From positions 1 to 37,364 of the forward strand of contig JAQUPB010000011.1 of assembly GCA_029004185.1 (NCBI GenBank): a DNA stretch of 37,364 nucleotides, given 5' to 3'. Every line of letters starts with the position of its first letter. Within the stretch, counting starts at the first letter, position 1. Below the pieces are notes generated by a model. It worked only from the letters and a program-made list of their open reading frames with translations, made no database searches and was not told the origin of the DNA. The translations under genes were made by a program, and so were the position numbers. Origin of the DNA: Bacteroidales bacterium. Its GTDB lineage: Bacteria > Bacteroidota > Bacteroidia > Bacteroidales > JAHJDW01. Positions 1 to 31,104 of this stretch are shown here, in pieces.

Positions 1-2376
1 TACTTTAAAAAAGAAGCAATTGAATGGGCTTGGGAATTACTTACAAAGGTTTATAAATTAGATAAAGAAAGATTATATGTTACTGTTTTTGAAGGCGATG
101 AAAAAGAGAAATTACCGAAAGATGATGAAGCATATAATTACTGGAAAAATATAATTCCCGAAAACAAAATACTACCGGGAAATAAAAAAGACAATTTCTG
201 GGAAATGGGCGATACAGGTCCTTGCGGTCCCTGCTCCGAAATACATATTGATTTACGAGATGAAACGGAAAGAAAAAAAGTTGATGGCTCAAAGTTGGTA
301 AATACAGGCAACCCTCTGGTAATTGAAATTTGGAATTTGGTTTTCATTCAGTATAACCGTTTGGCAGACGGAAGTTTGAAATTATTGCCAAACAAACATG
401 TTGATACAGGCATGGGATTTGAGCGGCTTTGCATGGCTATTCAGAATAAAAAATCGAATTATGATACTGATGTTTTTCAAACTCTGATTCAGAATATTGC
501 AAATATTTCCGGAAAAGAATATGGAAAAAACAAAAAGCAGGATATTGCAATGCGAGTTGCAGCCGACCATATAAGAGCTGTTTCTTTTGCAATTGCCGAC
601 GGACAACTTCCTTCGAACAATAAAGCAGGATATGTTATCCGAAGAATTTTACGGCGCGCAGTACGTTATGGATATTCGCATCTTGATTTGAAAGAACCTT
701 TTTTATTTCAGTTGGTAACTCCGCTTGCAACTCAAATGGGTGAAATGTTTCCCGAACTTGTTTCTCAAAAAGACTTAATTGAAAAAGTAATAAAAGAAGA
801 GGAAACTGCTTTTCTGCGAACGCTTTCCAACGGCATTCAGAAATTTGAAAATTATGTTTCAAACATTAAATCGAAAGAAATTAAGGGTGATTTTGCTTTT
901 GAATTATTTGATACTTATGGATTTCCGGTTGATTTAACTCAGCTCATGGCAAAAGAAAATAATCTTAATGTTGACATGAAAGGGTTTAATAAATTCATGG
1001 AAGAACAGAAAAACCGCTCGCGCCAGTCGGCAGTTGTTGAAACAGAAGATTGGACGGAGTTGAAAAAAGAGCAGAACACAGAATTTGTAGGATATGATTT
1101 AATCGAATGTAATTCCGAAATAATTAAATACAGAAAAATAAAATCAAAAGGGAAAGAACTATTTCAAATCGTTTTGAATAAAACTCCATTTTATGCCGAG
1201 TCGGGGGGACAGGCTGGCGACAGTGGTTTATTAATTTCCGGCGAAGAAAAGATTAATGTTATAAATACAGTAAAAGAAAACGATTTGATTATTCATATTT
1301 CCGAAAAACTTCCGAAAGATTTAGCAAAAAGTTTTACAGCAAAAGTTGATGAACACAGAAGAAATTTAACCGAAAATAATCACAGTGCAACGCATTTACT
1401 TCATGCTGCCCTGAGAAAGGTTCTTGGAACACACGTTGAGCAGAAAGGTTCACTGGTTGACGATGAACGTTTGCGTTTTGACTTTTCACATTTTGCAAAA
1501 CTTACGGATGAAGAAATTCAAAAAATTGAAAAATTGGTAAATGAAAAAATAAGCAAAAATATTTCAATTGAAGAATTCAGGAATATTACCATGCAGAAAG
1601 CAAAAGAAATGGGAGCAATGGCATTGTTCGGTGAAAAATATGGCGATAATGTTCGTGCAATTGCTTTTGATAAAAACTTTTCAATAGAACTTTGCGGAGG
1701 TACACATGTTAAAACAACCGGACAAATCGGAGTTTTTAAAATAAAAAGCGAATCGGCAATTGCTGCAGGAATAAGACGTATTGAGGCGGTTACATCAGAA
1801 AAAGCTGTTGAGTTAATTGCAAATATTGAGAAAGCAAGAATTACAATTATTGATAATTTGAAAGCAGAAATTAAAAAGAATATTTTAAAAATAAATGATA
1901 AGGAAACAAGAGAAACTTTACTATCAAAACTGGATAAAGAAGAGTCACTAGAAACATTAAAAGAAAATTCACTAAAGCAAATTTCGGAACAAAACAAAGA
2001 AGAAATTATAAAGTTAAAAGCTGAATTATCGGGCAAAGCAGAAAACATAAACGGAATAAATTTTATTTCAGCAAAGATTAATTTTGACAATGAATTTATT
2101 AAGGATCTGGCATTTCAGTTGAAAAATGAAATGAAAAATCTTTTTCTTGTTATTGGCTCGGAATATGATAATAAAGCAAGCATTAATGTTATGATTTCCG
2201 AAAATATTGTAAAAGAAAAGAACATCAATGCATCGGCAATAGTTCGTGAGCTTGCAAAAGAAATTGACGGCGGCGGCGGCGGACAACCATTTTTTGCAAC
2301 CGCAGGCGGGAAAAATATTGAAGGTATTGAAATGGCATTGAATAAAGCGAAAATAATGGTACAAAATTTAAAATAA
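1..2376 (+). CDS. alaS: Alanyl-tRNA synthetase, 5' end cut off by the window edge
   Basis: Charges tRNA-Ala with alanine in the cytoplasm. The reading frame is open from base 1 (YFKKEAIEWAWELL...), so the gene begins upstream of the window. 791 codons are present against a usual length of about 870, so roughly 80 N-terminal residues are missing. Numbered from the window start, the aminoacylation core includes GDTGPCGPCSEIH. The editing domain has its zinc-binding HxxxH (HSATH, 461-465) and CxxxH (CGGTH, 565-569). The C-terminal DHHA1 region has the glycine run DGGGGGQPFFATAGGK (Gly 757-761). The internal ATG at 205 lies inside the catalytic core and is not the start. Only six bases separate the stop from the inverted repeat that begins the DUF559 unit. 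Family identity is certain. Confidence 0.97.
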   Translation, partial: YFKKEAIEWAWELLTKVYKLDKERLYVTVFEGDEKEKLPKDDEAYNYWKNIIPENKILPGNKKDNFWEMGDTGPCGPCSEIHIDLRDETERKKVDGSKLVNTGNPLVIEIWNLVFIQYNRLADGSLKLLPNKHVDTGMGFERLCMAIQNKKSNYDTDVFQTLIQNIANISGKEYGKNKKQDIAMRVAADHIRAVSFAIADGQLPSNNKAGYVIRRILRRAVRYGYSHLDLKEPFLFQLVTPLATQMGEMFPELVSQKDLIEKVIKEEETAFLRTLSNGIQKFENYVSNIKSKEIKGDFAFELFDTYGFPVDLTQLMAKENNLNVDMKGFNKFMEEQKNRSRQSAVVETEDWTELKKEQNTEFVGYDLIECNSEIIKYRKIKSKGKELFQIVLNKTPFYAESGGQAGDSGLLISGEEKINVINTVKENDLIIHISEKLPKDLAKSFTAKVDEHRRNLTENNHSATHLLHAALRKVLGTHVEQKGSLVDDERLRFDFSHFAKLTDEEIQKIEKLVNEKISKNISIEEFRNITMQKAKEMGAMALFGEKYGDNVRAIAFDKNFSIELCGGTHVKTTGQIGVFKIKSESAIAAGIRRIEAVTSEKAVELIANIEKARITIIDNLKAEIKKNILKINDKETRETLLSKLDKEESLETLKENSLKQISEQNKEEIIKLKAELSGKAENINGINFISAKINFDNEFIKDLAFQLKNEMKNLFLVIGSEYDNKASINVMISENIVKEKNINASAIVRELAKEIDGGGGGQPFFATAGGKNIEGIEMALNKAKIMVQNLK

Positions 2377-2382
2377 GCAACA

Positions 2383-2421
2383 ACTCCCCTCCTGTTTTAG
2401 GAGGGGGGCAGGGGGTGGTTG
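2383..2421. repeat. Left arm of inverted repeat around DUF559 gene, with internal hairpin
   Basis: This 39-base sequence is the reverse complement of 2850-2887 apart from one extra G in a G run. It contains its own palindrome: CCCCTCCT (2386-2393), loop GTTTT, AGGAGGGG (2399-2406). It begins six bases after the alaS stop and ends one base before the ATG at 2423. Any ribosome-binding sequence for the DUF559 gene (G-rich, AGGAGG at 2399-2404, GGGGGTGG at 2411) therefore lies inside the repeat. No T tract follows, so a terminator role is not evident. Confidence 0.9.
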
Positions 2422-2422
2422 A

Positions 2423-2812
2423 ATGACAAGAATACAAGTAAATAACATTCCTGAACTGAAACAAACAAGAAGAAACTTACGTCATAATTTAACATCTGCT
2501 GAAGCAACGTTATGGAACCATCTAAAGAAAAGTCAGGTTGAAGGAAGAAAATTCAGAAGGCAGCACAGCGTTGGTTTATATGTTTTGGATTTTTATTGTC
2601 CTTCGGAAAAGTTAGCCGTAGAATTAGATGGAGCAAAACATTTTACACCTGAAGGCGAAGAACATGATAAAATAAGAACAGAATATTTAGAAAGATTTGG
2701 AATAAGGGTTATAAGATTTGAAAATAAAATGATTTTTAAAGATTTGAATTCGGTGATTGAGGGTATAAAGAGTAATTTTGCAAACAAAACTGAAGCAGGA
2801 GGAGGTAATTAA
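2423..2812 (+). CDS. DUF559 / Vsr-like endonuclease-domain protein
   Basis: A 129-residue protein of the DUF559 family, whose fold relates to very-short-patch-repair and other PD-(D/E)XK nucleases. The substrate is unknown. The family pattern is complete: RRNLRHNLTSAEATLW near the N-terminus, GRKFRRQ, then DFYC (Asp56) and AVELDG (Glu67, Asp69), then IRVIRFEN. Asp56 and Glu67 are the likely metal-binding acids, by family analogy. The C-terminal tail (TEAGGGN) is encoded by a GGA/GGAGG-rich stretch that resembles the flanking repeats. The gene sits exactly between two arms of a 38-bp inverted repeat and splits alaS from folE, to neither of which it relates functionally. That suggests a small mobile or formerly mobile unit. 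The biological role is unproven; the domain call is strong. Confidence 0.9.
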   Translation: MTRIQVNNIPELKQTRRNLRHNLTSAEATLWNHLKKSQVEGRKFRRQHSVGLYVLDFYCPSEKLAVELDGAKHFTPEGEEHDKIRTEYLERFGIRVIRFENKMIFKDLNSVIEGIKSNFANKTEAGGGN

Positions 2813-2813
2813 A

Positions 2814-2887
2814 CAACCACCCCCTGTGAAACAAGGGAGGATGTTTAAGCAACCACCCCCTGCCCCCTCCTAAAACAGGAGGGGAGT
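2814..2887. repeat. Right arm of inverted repeat, preceded by a decayed partial copy
   Basis: Positions 2850-2887 are the inverted partner of 2383-2421 and contain the hairpin CCCCTCCT (2864-2871), loop AAAAC, AGGAGGGG (2877-2884). Immediately upstream, 2814-2842 starts with the same 13-mer CAACCACCCCCTG (2814-2826, repeated at 2850-2862) but then diverges (TGAAACAAGGGAGG). It looks like an eroded extra copy. The block starts right after the DUF559 stop and ends 34 bases before folE. Confidence 0.88.
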
Positions 2888-2921: not shown

Positions 2922-3563
2922 ATGAAAAAAATTAGCAAACAAATGGCAAAGCAGAACATAATGGATAATTATGATGGAGTTGAAATATATAATCCTGCTG
3001 TTACAGCTGAAATTGCCGAAAGTTATAAAAGGGTATTAAAAGCAATTGGCGAAAATCCAAAAAGGGAAGGACTTTTAAAAACTCCAGAAAGAGTTGCACG
3101 GGCACTTCAGTTTCTTACGCACGGATATTCAATCAACCCCGAAGAACTTGTAAAATCAGGAATGTTCAAGGAAAAATACAGGGAAATGGTAATAGTGAAA
3201 GATATTGACATATATTCTCTTTGCGAACATCATATGCTTCCTTTCATTGGTAAAGCTCATGTTGCTTATATTCCCAACGGATATATTGTAGGGTTGAGTA
3301 AAATAGCGAGAATAGTAGACGCTTATGCAAGACGGCTACAAGTGCAGGAACGCCTGACTTCGCAGATAAAAGACTGCATTCATAATGCCCTTAAACCTCT
3401 TGGTGTTGCCGTTGTTATTGAAGCACAGCATTTGTGCATGCAGATGCGCGGAATACAAAAACAAAATTCAGTTACTACTACTTCCGACTTTACAGGTGTT
3501 TTCATGAAAAGCAATAAAACAAGAGCAGAGTTCCTTAACATAATAGGCTCAAAGCTTCATTGA
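2922..3563 (+). CDS. folE: GTP cyclohydrolase I
   Basis: Converts GTP to 7,8-dihydroneopterin triphosphate, the first step of tetrahydrofolate (and possibly queuosine or pterin) synthesis, in the cytoplasm. It has 213 residues, normal for the family. The zinc site is intact: Cys101 and His104 in [10 protein letters not shown], and Cys172 in [11 protein letters not shown]. The neighbouring His103 and His170 match catalytic positions of the E. coli enzyme. Other signatures are TPERVARAL, the GLSKIAR strand-helix and QVQERLT. ATG at 2922 gives a 30-residue lead before the conserved core; Met8 or Met14 could also serve. No clear TAnnTTTG box is visible between the upstream inverted repeat and the start, so the promoter may lie within or before the DUF559 unit. 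Confidence 0.96.
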
Positions 3564-5594: not shown

Positions 5595-6158
5595 ATGCAA
5601 AACTTATATATTATAGCAGGATGTAATGGTGCAGGAAAAACAACAGCTTCTTATACTGTTTTACCGGATATGCTAAAGTGTAAAGAGTTTATCAATGCAG
5701 ATGAAATTGCTCGTGGGTTATCTCCTTTCCAGCCGGAAAAATCAGCTATTGAAGCCGGTAAGCTAATGATACAACGCCTTAATGATTTATTAAATAAAAA
5801 AGTGGACTTTGCTTTTGAAACAACATTATCAGGCAAAGGTTTCGTGAATACTTTGAAAAAAGCAAAAAATAATAATTATTTTATAACATTAGTATTCTTT
5901 TATTTAGATTCACCAAGCTTGGCTATAGAAAGAGTTATAGCGAGAAAAATTGCCGGAGGACACAACATTCCCGAGGACGTTATAAGACGTCGTTATATTT
6001 CCGGAATAAAAAATTTATTTAAAGTTTATATTCCTGTTTCAGATTACTGGATGATAATAAATAACTCAAAAACTCCACCGATTGTGATCGCTGAGGGTAA
6101 TAAAAACTCAAAAATAATTAATAATGAAAAAATTTTTAAAAAACTAAAATCAATTTAA
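5595..6158 (+). CDS. Zeta-toxin-like P-loop kinase (COG4185-type)
   Basis: A 187-residue P-loop protein of the zeta-toxin/COG4185 group, whose better-known relatives phosphorylate UDP-sugars and poison peptidoglycan synthesis. Activity here is inferred only. The Walker A is GCNGAGKTT (9-17). It is followed by INADEIARG with Asp36, the conserved Glu75 in AFETTLSG, and a lid with RVIARKIAGGH (113-123) and RRRY (131-134). This layout matches the compact single-domain form. The ATG at 5595 puts the P-loop at the expected distance. One base separates its stop from a 53-codon gene, a likely cognate partner. The pair sits between two copies of the fabD 3' end, suggesting acquisition as a unit. No signal peptide or membrane segment. 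Confidence 0.85.
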   Translation: MQNLYIIAGCNGAGKTTASYTVLPDMLKCKEFINADEIARGLSPFQPEKSAIEAGKLMIQRLNDLLNKKVDFAFETTLSGKGFVNTLKKAKNNNYFITLVFFYLDSPSLAIERVIARKIAGGHNIPEDVIRRRYISGIKNLFKVYIPVSDYWMIINNSKTPPIVIAEGNKNSKIINNEKIFKKLKSI

Positions 6159-28560: not shown

Positions 28561-31104
28561 ATGTTAAAAAAGAAAATATCAAATATAAACGATGAATTTG
28601 ACCCGAAACTATTCATATTTATATTCAGGAAAAGCATTTTATGGATAATTTCTTTTTTCGTTATAGCGGGAATAGTGGCATTTTTATATTTAAGATATAC
28701 CCATCCTATTTATGAAGCCGTTTCTGTTATTCAGCAAAATTCAACAAATACCGCAAACATTCTTAATACCGAAGATGTTCAGCAAAGCAGTATTGAAAAA
28801 GATCTTGAGTTATTAAGATCCCCTGTTTTTTTAAATAGAGTTTTTTCTAAACTTCCGTTAAATATAAGTTATTATCTGAAAGGAACTATACTGGACTTTG
28901 AAGCATATACAAGTGCTCCATTTAAAATAGAAGTTAAAGTTAAAGATCCTTCAGTCTTTGACAAGCAAATATTTTTGAATTTTGTTGATAACAGGCGGTT
29001 TAAAATTGATTATGAAATTAATGGTAAAATATACAATCAGCAAGGACTGGTAAACGTGTGGGTGATATTTCCTCAGATTGATTTAAAGATCAGCATTATT
29101 AATTATTCTGCTATTATTCAGCAAAGAAGTAAAAATTTGAGCGATGATTATTATTTTATTGTTAATGACCCGCAAAGAATAGTATCAATAAATTCATCAC
29201 GATTAAGGATAAACATACTTAACGGTGCAGCTAAAACAGTTCAGATCAGTTTTCAGGACAGAAATTCAAACAAGGCTGCAGATATTGTAAATACTATTGC
29301 GCAGGAATTTAAAATTTATGATATTGAAAAAAAGGCAGAAAGTGCAAAAAATATTCTTGAGTTTCTTGACAATCAACTTACAGAAGTTTATACCAAGTTA
29401 ATTGAAACGGAAACACAAATGCGGGCATATAGAAAAGGAAGTATTATTGAAGGATTAAAAAGCAAGAATTTTTTTGCTGATAATGGAATTGATACAAATA
29501 GCATAGATTCTTTTATCGCAAACGTTAAACTTCTTGAAGCAAAAAATATTCCCGTAAAAATTGACGATATAGAAAACAGAATAGTAAATATATATTATCA
29601 AAATGGTGTACTGAACGAAATTGAAAATAGTATAGTTAAAAACAAAGATGTTGACATATATAAGTTGATTGCAATACTCGCAGGAAGTGATTTACAACAA
29701 AGCATGATATCAGGTATATTAAGCAGTATTCAGCAATTGCTTGTAAGAAAAGAACAAATTTTATATGATGTAACACTCAAAAGCGGACAAGTAGAATCAT
29801 TGGACTTTCAGATAGAAGTTCAGAAAAAACTGCTCGGGGAAACAATAAAAGCAATAAGAAGAACCAATGATACGAAAAAGAAAGAACTCTTTGGTAAGAT
29901 ATATGAATATTATAAAATAATGAGCAAAGATGCGAACATTAATGACACCACCGGCGGACTCGGAATGTATCCTATAGAATATACTGTTTTGCAAAGAATG
30001 CATTCCATTAATGAAAAATATTATGACCAGTTGGTTCAGAAGAAAGCAGAATATTCAATTTCCAAAGCAGGATACACTTCAAATAATGAAATATTACAGG
30101 TTGCCATGGCACCAACAGTTCCTATTTCTCCTAATAAAAGAAATATTATAATGGCTTGTATTCTTGGAGCAATGTTTTTTTGTCTTGCTCTTATCATAAT
30201 AAGATATATATTATATAATTATATATGTTTGCTATCAGATATTACCAAATATACTGATATACCTGTACTTGGAATGATTCCCAAATACAGAAAAGAAATA
30301 CCTCTTACACAGTTGATTGTTGATAAAAGACCGAAATCATTAATTGCAGAATCATTAAGGGCGGTAAGAACAAACTTGCAGTTTATATCAAATGAACCGG
30401 GTTCGAAAATTATTTCCATAACTTCTACAATATCCGGTGAAGGGAAAACATTTGTTGCAGTAAATTTGGCGGGAATTATGGCTTTCTCGGCAAAAAAAGT
30501 GATTGTTATTGACTCCGATATGCGAAAACCAAAAATTCATCTTGGCTTTGGCGTTGATAACGATAAAGGACTCAGTACCGTATTAATCGGAAAAGATGTT
30601 ATTGAAAATTGCATCCGTTCAAGTGCTGTTGAATACCTTGATTTTTTAACTGCAGGACCAACTCCTCCTAATCCTTCAGAATTGATTCTGAGTTCAAAAA
30701 TGGACGAAACTATTAGTTATCTTAAAACAAAATATGATTACGTGATAATTGATAATCCTCCGGCAGGACTCGTAACCGATGGTATAATTAATATACAAAG
30801 AGCAGATTATCCTATTTATATTTTTAAGGCAAATTATTCAAATAAAGGGTTTATTGAAAATGTTGATAAACTGGTTAATGAAAATAAAATATCAAAACTT
30901 GCTATAATACTAAATGGAGTTGAAATTTTAACTTCTGAATACGGCTACGGAAAAGGATACAAAAACTATGGCTACGGTTACGGTTACGGTTATGGCTATG
31001 GCTACGGCTACGGTTATGGATATGGTTATGGCTATTATGATGAAGATAAAAATAAAAAAGTTAAAGTACCGTTTTTGAGGAAAATTTTAGGAATAAAAAC
31101 ATAA
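28561..31104 (+). CDS. Wzc-type polysaccharide co-polymerase / tyrosine autokinase
   Basis: An 847-residue inner-membrane protein that sets polysaccharide chain length and couples export to phosphorylation. An N-terminal membrane segment (about 21-43) is followed by a large periplasmic Wzz domain, a GNVR-like region and a second membrane segment (about 527-549). The C-terminal cytosolic BY-kinase has Walker A GEGKT (626-630), Walker A' IDSDMRKP (Asp651, Asp653) and Walker B VIIDNPPAG. The tail is extraordinary: 11 consecutive Tyr-Gly pairs then Tyr-Tyr (803-826), a much larger tyrosine cluster than usual. The Wza-type gene is 20 bases upstream, as expected for partners. No Wzb phosphatase is seen in the window. 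Confidence 0.94.
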   Translation: MLKKKISNINDEFDPKLFIFIFRKSILWIISFFVIAGIVAFLYLRYTHPIYEAVSVIQQNSTNTANILNTEDVQQSSIEKDLELLRSPVFLNRVFSKLPLNISYYLKGTILDFEAYTSAPFKIEVKVKDPSVFDKQIFLNFVDNRRFKIDYEINGKIYNQQGLVNVWVIFPQIDLKISIINYSAIIQQRSKNLSDDYYFIVNDPQRIVSINSSRLRINILNGAAKTVQISFQDRNSNKAADIVNTIAQEFKIYDIEKKAESAKNILEFLDNQLTEVYTKLIETETQMRAYRKGSIIEGLKSKNFFADNGIDTNSIDSFIANVKLLEAKNIPVKIDDIENRIVNIYYQNGVLNEIENSIVKNKDVDIYKLIAILAGSDLQQSMISGILSSIQQLLVRKEQILYDVTLKSGQVESLDFQIEVQKKLLGETIKAIRRTNDTKKKELFGKIYEYYKIMSKDANINDTTGGLGMYPIEYTVLQRMHSINEKYYDQLVQKKAEYSISKAGYTSNNEILQVAMAPTVPISPNKRNIIMACILGAMFFCLALIIIRYILYNYICLLSDITKYTDIPVLGMIPKYRKEIPLTQLIVDKRPKSLIAESLRAVRTNLQFISNEPGSKIISITSTISGEGKTFVAVNLAGIMAFSAKKVIVIDSDMRKPKIHLGFGVDNDKGLSTVLIGKDVIENCIRSSAVEYLDFLTAGPTPPNPSELILSSKMDETISYLKTKYDYVIIDNPPAGLVTDGIINIQRADYPIYIFKANYSNKGFIENVDKLVNENKISKLAIILNGVEILTSEYGYGKGYKNYGYGYGYGYGYGYGYGYGYGYGYYDEDKNKKVKVPFLRKILGIKT
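30967..31038 (+). repeat. Hexanucleotide tandem array (TAYGGN) encoding (Tyr-Gly)11-Tyr-Tyr
   Basis: Eleven in-frame TAT/TAC-GGN units plus two Tyr codons. The units use TAT and TAC, and GGC, GGT and GGA, in a mixed order, so the DNA array is imperfect while the peptide repeat is perfect. It lies in the tyrosine-cluster tail of the Wzc-type kinase. Confidence 0.9.

Follow-up and report, generated by a model that had tools for sequence, protein, structure and literature searches.

The BoxC/PIT repeats of Escherichia coli have been known since the 1990s, and we know of no explanation given so far for their origin. Together with the "TM" repeats, they reportedly adopt a purine-motif intrastrand triplex in vitro, in which the tail of the repeat acts as the third strand and lies antiparallel on the purine arm of the hairpin in GGC, AAT, and TAT triplets (Holder et al. 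2015, PMC4666352). According to the same study, transposase, integrase, or other mobility functions were never found near the E. coli repeats, and ycjD is not mentioned there (PMC4666352). Earlier work put the product of ycjD, a member of the DUF559 family, close to Vsr (PMC1189080), and DUF559 was assigned to the EDxHD homing family in a genome paper of 2022 (PMC9403480). The papers found gave no function for YcjD or for its family member NGO0050 of Neisseria gonorrhoeae, and no earlier report of a link between DUF559 and triplex repeats was found in the literature searched, which lay mostly outside subscription papers.

The locus considered here lies in a window of 37,364 nucleotides (the whole stretch of Bacteroidales DNA that was analysed) and is probably a mobile genetic unit of minimal size, in which inverted, predicted triplex-forming repeats bracket a DUF559 nuclease gene whose protein would recognise them. 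As the initial annotation had stated, the unit occupies the gap between alaS (positions 205 to 2376, forward strand; a 723-amino-acid open reading frame as listed, named from its sequence and that annotation) and folE (2922 to 3563, forward strand; 213 amino acids). The left repeat (2383 to 2421, forward strand; 39 nt), which begins 6 nt past the alaS stop, consists of a hairpin at 2386 to 2406 (CCCCTCCT-GTTTT-AGGAGGGG), a connecting loop at 2407 to 2411 (GGCAG), and a predicted third-strand tail at 2412 to 2419 (GGGGTGGT); it was recovered by inverted-repeat comparison, a hairpin scan, and a strict triplex search. Its inverse, the right repeat (2850 to 2887, reverse strand; 38 nt), was recovered by inverted-repeat comparison, hairpin scan, and triplex match and has its tail at 2852 to 2859, a loop of 4 nt, and its hairpin at 2864 to 2884. 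The earlier description of the arms as an inverted repeat differing by one G, each with an internal 8-bp hairpin, was borne out: an extra G on the left is the sole difference, and each stem is an 8-bp CCCCTCCT/AGGAGGGG helix closed by a 5-nt loop. Folded as single-stranded DNA, the repeats reached about -10 kcal/mol each, with z scores of -2.0 and -2.5 relative to dinucleotide shuffles, and an RNA-family search of positions 2300 to 2950 gave no Rfam match.

The DUF559 gene (2423 to 2812, forward strand; 129 amino acids) is the only open reading frame within the unit. Its ATG lies one base beyond the left arm, as previously observed, and the left repeat overlaps its leader. The claim of a decayed third repeat copy at 2814 to 2842 (reverse strand) held for the 13-nt tail CAACCACCCCCTG (2814 to 2826), which is exact, but the hairpin part has degenerated and folds no better than shuffles (z, -0.05). 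Three solitary copies with this arm and tail, AGGAGGGG and GGGGTGGT with a short loop between them, lie elsewhere in the genome, near or at the ends of other genes. Four full DUF559 genes are present in the source genome, and the other three each have a C-rich/G-rich hairpin of different sequence and the same build close to one end. Also in the window are a 187-amino-acid open reading frame (5595 to 6158, forward strand) with an N-terminal P-loop (AGCNGAGKTT), which resembles zeta-toxin-type kinases and had no NCBIfam match, and a short tandem array of a GGCTAC-type unit (30966 to 31035).

The window protein matched PF04480 (DUF559) over residues 12 to 117 (E value, 4.8e-33; 113.7 bits versus a cut-off of 20.6), and its conserved residues are T24-xx-E27, Q47, D56-F57, E67-x-D69-G70, H73, and D82. 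Among 35 diverse DUF559 members, 14 residues were invariant. The folds nearest to a structure model of the protein (pLDDT, 87; pTM, 0.79) were 3hrl, itself a DUF559 protein (Z, 14.7), the homing endonuclease I-Bth0305I (Z, 11.0 over 94 residues), and Vsr (Z, 9.6), and the DUF559 family profile matched I-Bth0305I with an E value of 3e-5. The DUF559 identity given in the initial annotation was upheld, and the protein models as a PD-(D/E)XK nuclease of the Vsr/I-Bth0305I type. Matches to PADLOC defence families were weak, the best being mREase_II (E value, 2.5e-5) over part of the protein. Vsr nicks DNA, and a nicking role for the DUF559 protein is accordingly plausible.

Two features of the repeats had been overlooked, the match of the tail to the triplex code and the BoxC/PIT identity. 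The tail GGGGTGGT agrees with the antiparallel triplex code for the purine arm AGGAGGGG at 8 of 8 positions in both repeats, with hairpin and connecting loops of 5 and 5 nt on the left and 5 and 4 nt on the right. The repeats thus have the sequence characteristics of BoxC/PIT/TM elements (three blocks of 6 to 15 nt, AAT/GGC/TAT pairing, loops of 1 to 6 nt), including dispersed genomic copies, three solitary and two at the gene. By sequence definition the window repeats are members of the BoxC/PIT/TM family and putative triplex formers. A strict search for triplex elements in the 37-kb window returned only the two repeats of the unit, and the reversed-sequence control returned none.

The same relation between tail and arm was found in a large part of the 155 hairpins flanking DUF559 genes. 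With a fit defined as agreement at 85% or more of positions, the tail fitted its own purine arm in 46% of hairpins, compared with 3.4% for shuffled tails and 14% for tails swapped in from other DUF559 genes, the swaps reaching 22% at most in 200 rounds; roughly one repeat in two remained below 85%. The tail-arm pairs were mostly G:G (456), A:T (113), and A:A (91), with few others, and the connecting loop was mostly 3 nt. The density of strict triplex elements was 1.79 per kb up to 200 bp from DUF559 genes, 0.077 per kb at 500 to 900 bp, and 0.008 or 0.004 per kb in random stretches; none occurred in reversed-sequence controls.

Hairpins of this class were defined from the source genome and its order by an all-pyrimidine 5' arm with at least four C residues and a stem of at least 6 bp. 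With two sets of genes pooled, such a hairpin lay within 150 bp of 103 out of 123 stand-alone DUF559 genes, which represent at least a dozen phyla. In the first set, from the same order, 37 of 48 genes had such a hairpin and 19 had one on both sides, with 68 hairpins arranged pyrimidine first and 1 purine first. The second set of 75 genes was fetched after the class had been defined and came from Bacteroidota, Acidobacteria, Chloroflexota, Cyanobacteria, Patescibacteria, Thermodesulfobacteriota/Desulfobacterales, and others; 66 genes had a hairpin, and the arm order was pyrimidine first in 109 cases and the opposite in 3. The arrangement at the window gene is no local peculiarity. Such a hairpin was present within 150 bp of only 1 of 329 control open reading frames of at least 100 codons, and hairpin density was 4.8 per kb beside DUF559 genes, whereas random stretches had 0.013 per kb in those genomes and 0.015 per kb in genomes lacking DUF559. 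At about one DUF559 gene in six, no hairpin was detected. Some of the genes share a genome or kinship, so that the counts are partly non-independent, and the controls were unmatched for intergenic length, but the gap between genes and controls is too large for either to account for the association. Two contigs (L042, G026:C148; L046, G013:C135) each carry two DUF559 genes amid many degenerate repeats, resembling a growing tandem cluster.

Repeats and proteins also varied together. Sharing of k-mers between hairpin regions tracked protein distance, also between phyla (r, -0.24; p, 0.0005 with permutation within phylum), and fell from 0.16 at protein distances below 45% to 0.05 above 65%, with hardly any such trend in DNA 500 to 900 bp from the gene. 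Repeats of the window type (CCCCTCCT hairpin, GGGGTGGT-like tail) accompany proteins closely related to that of the window in Hymenobacter, Pontibacter, and Acidobacteria. Joint inheritance accounts for part of this co-variation and could produce it alone; over such protein distances, non-coding DNA that nothing maintains should have reached saturation.

DUF559 matches occurred sporadically, in 58 of 149 genomes of the order, and went together with dispersed GGAGAGGG/GGGTGAGG repeats: 19 of 28 genomes with the repeats had DUF559 versus 39 of 121 without them (odds ratio, about 4.4 to 5; p, 0.001), in a count that omits a genome whose only repeat copy is at the gene. For window-type repeats, no link with DUF559 presence in the order could be demonstrated (2 of 7 genomes). 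Three repeat-rich genomes had no DUF559 match, namely G095 (79% complete), with 64 GGAGAGGG-type copies, G136, with 14 copies, and G083, with 7 window-type copies; such genomes are expected if the repeats are long-lived and non-autonomous or if the gene was lost or unassembled. These three are candidates for orphaned repeats or a missing contig.

It is conceivable that the repeats are simply hot spots of recombination or replication and that a nuclease with another function, in repair or restriction, is carried along with them, neither acting on the other. Triplex repeats have reportedly been tied to genome instability in E. coli (PMC4666352), and some units lie beside or inside restriction genes (DUF1156, PglX, HsdM, type IIG). 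However, mere passengers would hardly explain a pairing with DUF559 that is nearly exclusive in many phyla when set against 1 of 329 control open reading frames, a match of repeat type to protein type that persists across phyla at protein distances expected to saturate non-coding DNA, or the genome-wide co-occurrence of repeats and DUF559, and we regard such passive association as improbable. At four loci (L167, L171, L153, and L240), the unit lies inside or adjoins a DNA methyltransferase-like gene of the restriction or BREX kind.

The class of the repeats was identified through E. coli, in which ycjD (gene order sapF-ycjD-fabI) is a DUF559 gene. It is adjoined by CCCTCTGGGGAGAGGGTTAGGGTGAGGGG, and the core pattern of the repeat had 11 exact copies across one E. 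coli chromosome; the repeats flanking ycjD are those scattered over the E. coli genome, which led to the assignment to BoxC/PIT/TM. In both E. coli and N. gonorrhoeae the DUF559 gene lies beside repeats of this triplex class. In E. coli strain 167 (L247), ycjD is annotated as a C-terminally incomplete pseudogene and the neighbouring triplex repeat is still present. Strains of E. coli differ at the ypfG-tktB gap (L246 and L261 to L266), some having a BoxC/TM repeat there and others a REP-like sequence (GTAGGCCGGATAAG...), which gives the impression that the two repeat families, though unrelated, have replaced each other at that site.

Several comparisons point to a mobile unit. Two loci of one genome (L024 and L044) share 581 bp at 86% identity, and the likeness starts exactly at the outer repeat end ACCTC and ends inside the repeat on the other side. 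In two pairs of loci from different organisms (L152/L155 and L154/L169), the gene and its flanking repeats are common to both loci, and similarity ceases at the repeats or within them. In Deinococcus psychrotolerans a DUF559 gene lies inside a repeat pair of approximately 55 bp between paaD and paaZ, and Deinococcus sp. QL22 has paaD-paaZ without the DUF559 unit. The window unit is likewise not fixed: in the one other genome of the same family that was compared (G026), there is neither repeat nor DUF559 upstream of folE, whose product is 69% identical. Since alaS does not adjoin folE in G026, this is no strict empty site. Other candidate comparisons were less clear. The E. coli sapF-fabI junction was rejected as a clean empty site since the other allele holds the eef efflux operon; Azospirillum offered no empty site, the gene being present in all close strains; and Picosynechococcus plasmids gave no clean filled/empty pair. 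Short partial matches on other replicons of close Azospirillum strains point to solitary repeats.

Some insertions are in frame. In genomes of several families, DUF559 and its repeats interrupt leucyl-tRNA synthetase (LeuRS) in frame at one site (NWIGxSxGA^FTTRPDT), with a few loop residues missing at the filled site; most other genomes, including members of the same families (G133 and G121), have a plain 31-residue segment there, and in G107 a repeat-derived insert remains with the nuclease absent. No target-site duplication was found in these comparisons, the Deinococcus and LeuRS empty sites being too diverged to show one. Further in-frame units were found in MetH (L180), IleRS (L181), an HsdM-like gene (L167), and a type IIG-like gene (L171), host genes that were named from sequence motifs rather than profile searches. 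The in-frame repeats translate as linkers, for example, PTPTLPQGEGE. At six LeuRS loci of the same order (L018, L021, L032, L035, L039, and L228), the DUF559 domains are in frame with catalytic residues apparently kept, and the insertion site is the editing region. Another LeuRS insert (L227) has no detectable hairpins, and two others (L217 and L218) are short and repeat-like, with no nuclease. At four loci (L222, L223, L224, and L225, in G035, G081, G101, and G128), DUF559 matched weakly at another position, within LeuRS or immediately behind it, and these matches are perhaps decayed insertions.

Such linkers bear on the suggestion that the hairpins are transcription terminators or expression controls of a DUF559 gene of unrelated function. 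The position of the hairpins on both sides of the gene, with the left repeat reaching into the leader, would suit this role. However, there is no T-tract, the same repeats are read in frame in LeuRS, IleRS, and MetH, solitary copies stand elsewhere in the genome, and PIT elements had neither promoter nor terminator activity in published tests (reported in PMC4666352). We consider this explanation very improbable.

A stronger rival is that the palindromes are pre-existing targets, spread by other means, which a free-standing DUF559 homing endonuclease cuts so that recombination copies the gene between two of them. The nearest named relative of the protein is the homing endonuclease I-Bth0305I, the family has been placed with EDxHD homing enzymes (PMC9403480), and repeat-rich genomes without DUF559 occur. 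Several genes (L043, L054, L058, L059, and L150) are flanked by direct rather than inverted copies of the repeat, and homing is favoured at those loci. In the window and at many other loci, however, the repeats are inverted; most genomes are repeat-free at the LeuRS site, so that the whole unit arrived there; and copies at unrelated loci have repeats and gene in common as a single block. The inverted arrangements and the LeuRS insertions favour movement of the whole unit. Homing onto pre-existing repeats is a rather unlikely explanation, though less so than the other alternatives.

The best reading is a REP/RAYT-like pair of repeat and nuclease built on an unrelated, homing-type enzyme. The repeat, as a single strand, would fold into a hairpin with a third strand, giving a purine-motif intrastrand triplex. 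The DUF559 nuclease would recognise the folded repeat, probably while it is single stranded, for example, during replication, and would then nick or cut at it, and repair or recombination could copy one repeat, or repeat, gene, and repeat together, to new sites. Solitary BoxC/PIT/TM repeats would then be non-autonomous copies, as REPs are for RAYTs. Points against this reading are the repeat-rich genomes with no DUF559 match, the DUF559 genes with no detected hairpin, the failure to find a target-site duplication, the loop residues missing at the filled LeuRS site, the co-variation that joint inheritance could explain, and the repeats whose triplex fit is below 85%. The initial annotation had proposed a mobile, REP/RAYT-like pair of nuclease and palindrome, and this core idea withstood the checks named there: the hairpin has other genomic copies, DUF559 genes elsewhere have flanking repeats of the same class, and the unit is not fixed. 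The DUF559 protein may bind, nick, or move the repeat, and folding may limit expression of the gene, as that annotation also suggested.

The DUF559-repeat pairing in many phyla suggests that a candidate missing partner has been found for long-known, unexplained bacterial repeats. A wider proposal, for which we judge the chances to be slightly below even, is that throughout the bacteria the triplex-forming BoxC/PIT repeats have DUF559 proteins as their cognate enzymes, in a system as widespread as REP/RAYT and of independent origin, whose enzyme reads an intrastrand triplex and in which one subfamily has specialised in in-frame insertion, for example, into LeuRS. With ycjD among the genes concerned, the question can be put to the test in E. 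coli K-12, a laboratory strain. Should the nuclease prove to read folded DNA, nature would have supplied a case of intrastrand-triplex recognition by an enzyme. The insertions in tRNA synthetases show that essential genes can accommodate such units without being destroyed.

Compared with known systems, the unit shares features with several. A classical insertion sequence, with terminal inverted repeats and a DDE transposase, was rejected because the only open reading frame of the unit is DUF559; no DDE transposase is present there. Like DUF559 units, Rickettsia palindromic elements are palindromic repeats in frame inside protein-coding genes, but they are not known to be linked to a nuclease. 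I-Bth0305I and Vsr resemble DUF559 in the fold of the catalytic domain, and I-Bth0305I also by profile, but the window DUF559 lies in no group I intron or intein; it has its own open reading frame between repeats in an intergenic gap, a free-standing gene with repeat ends and without a known target. YcjD of E. coli (NF007294) and NGO0050 of N. gonorrhoeae (3hrl) belong to the same family as the window protein. REP/RAYT (TnpA-REP) systems likewise have short, dispersed, intergenic hairpin repeats with an asymmetric tail and a partner gene flanked by copies, but their enzyme is a Y1 HUH protein rather than a Vsr-like PD-(D/E)XK protein, and their repeats bear a GTAG/CGTC tag, whereas neither arm of the window unit contains GTAG or CGTC on either strand and its tail fits as a triplex third strand; membership of the window unit in RAYT was rejected on the basis of the DUF559 protein with its restriction-endonuclease-like model and the missing tag. 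The closest likeness in the repeats themselves is to BoxC/PIT/TM, which have the same pyrimidine arm, purine arm, antiparallel third strand (GGC/AAT/TAT), and loops of 1 to 6 nt and are also G/C-rich, dispersed, and sometimes paired in inverted orientation; those were described as orphan intergenic repeats, whereas the repeats of the DUF559 unit bracket a specific nuclease gene.
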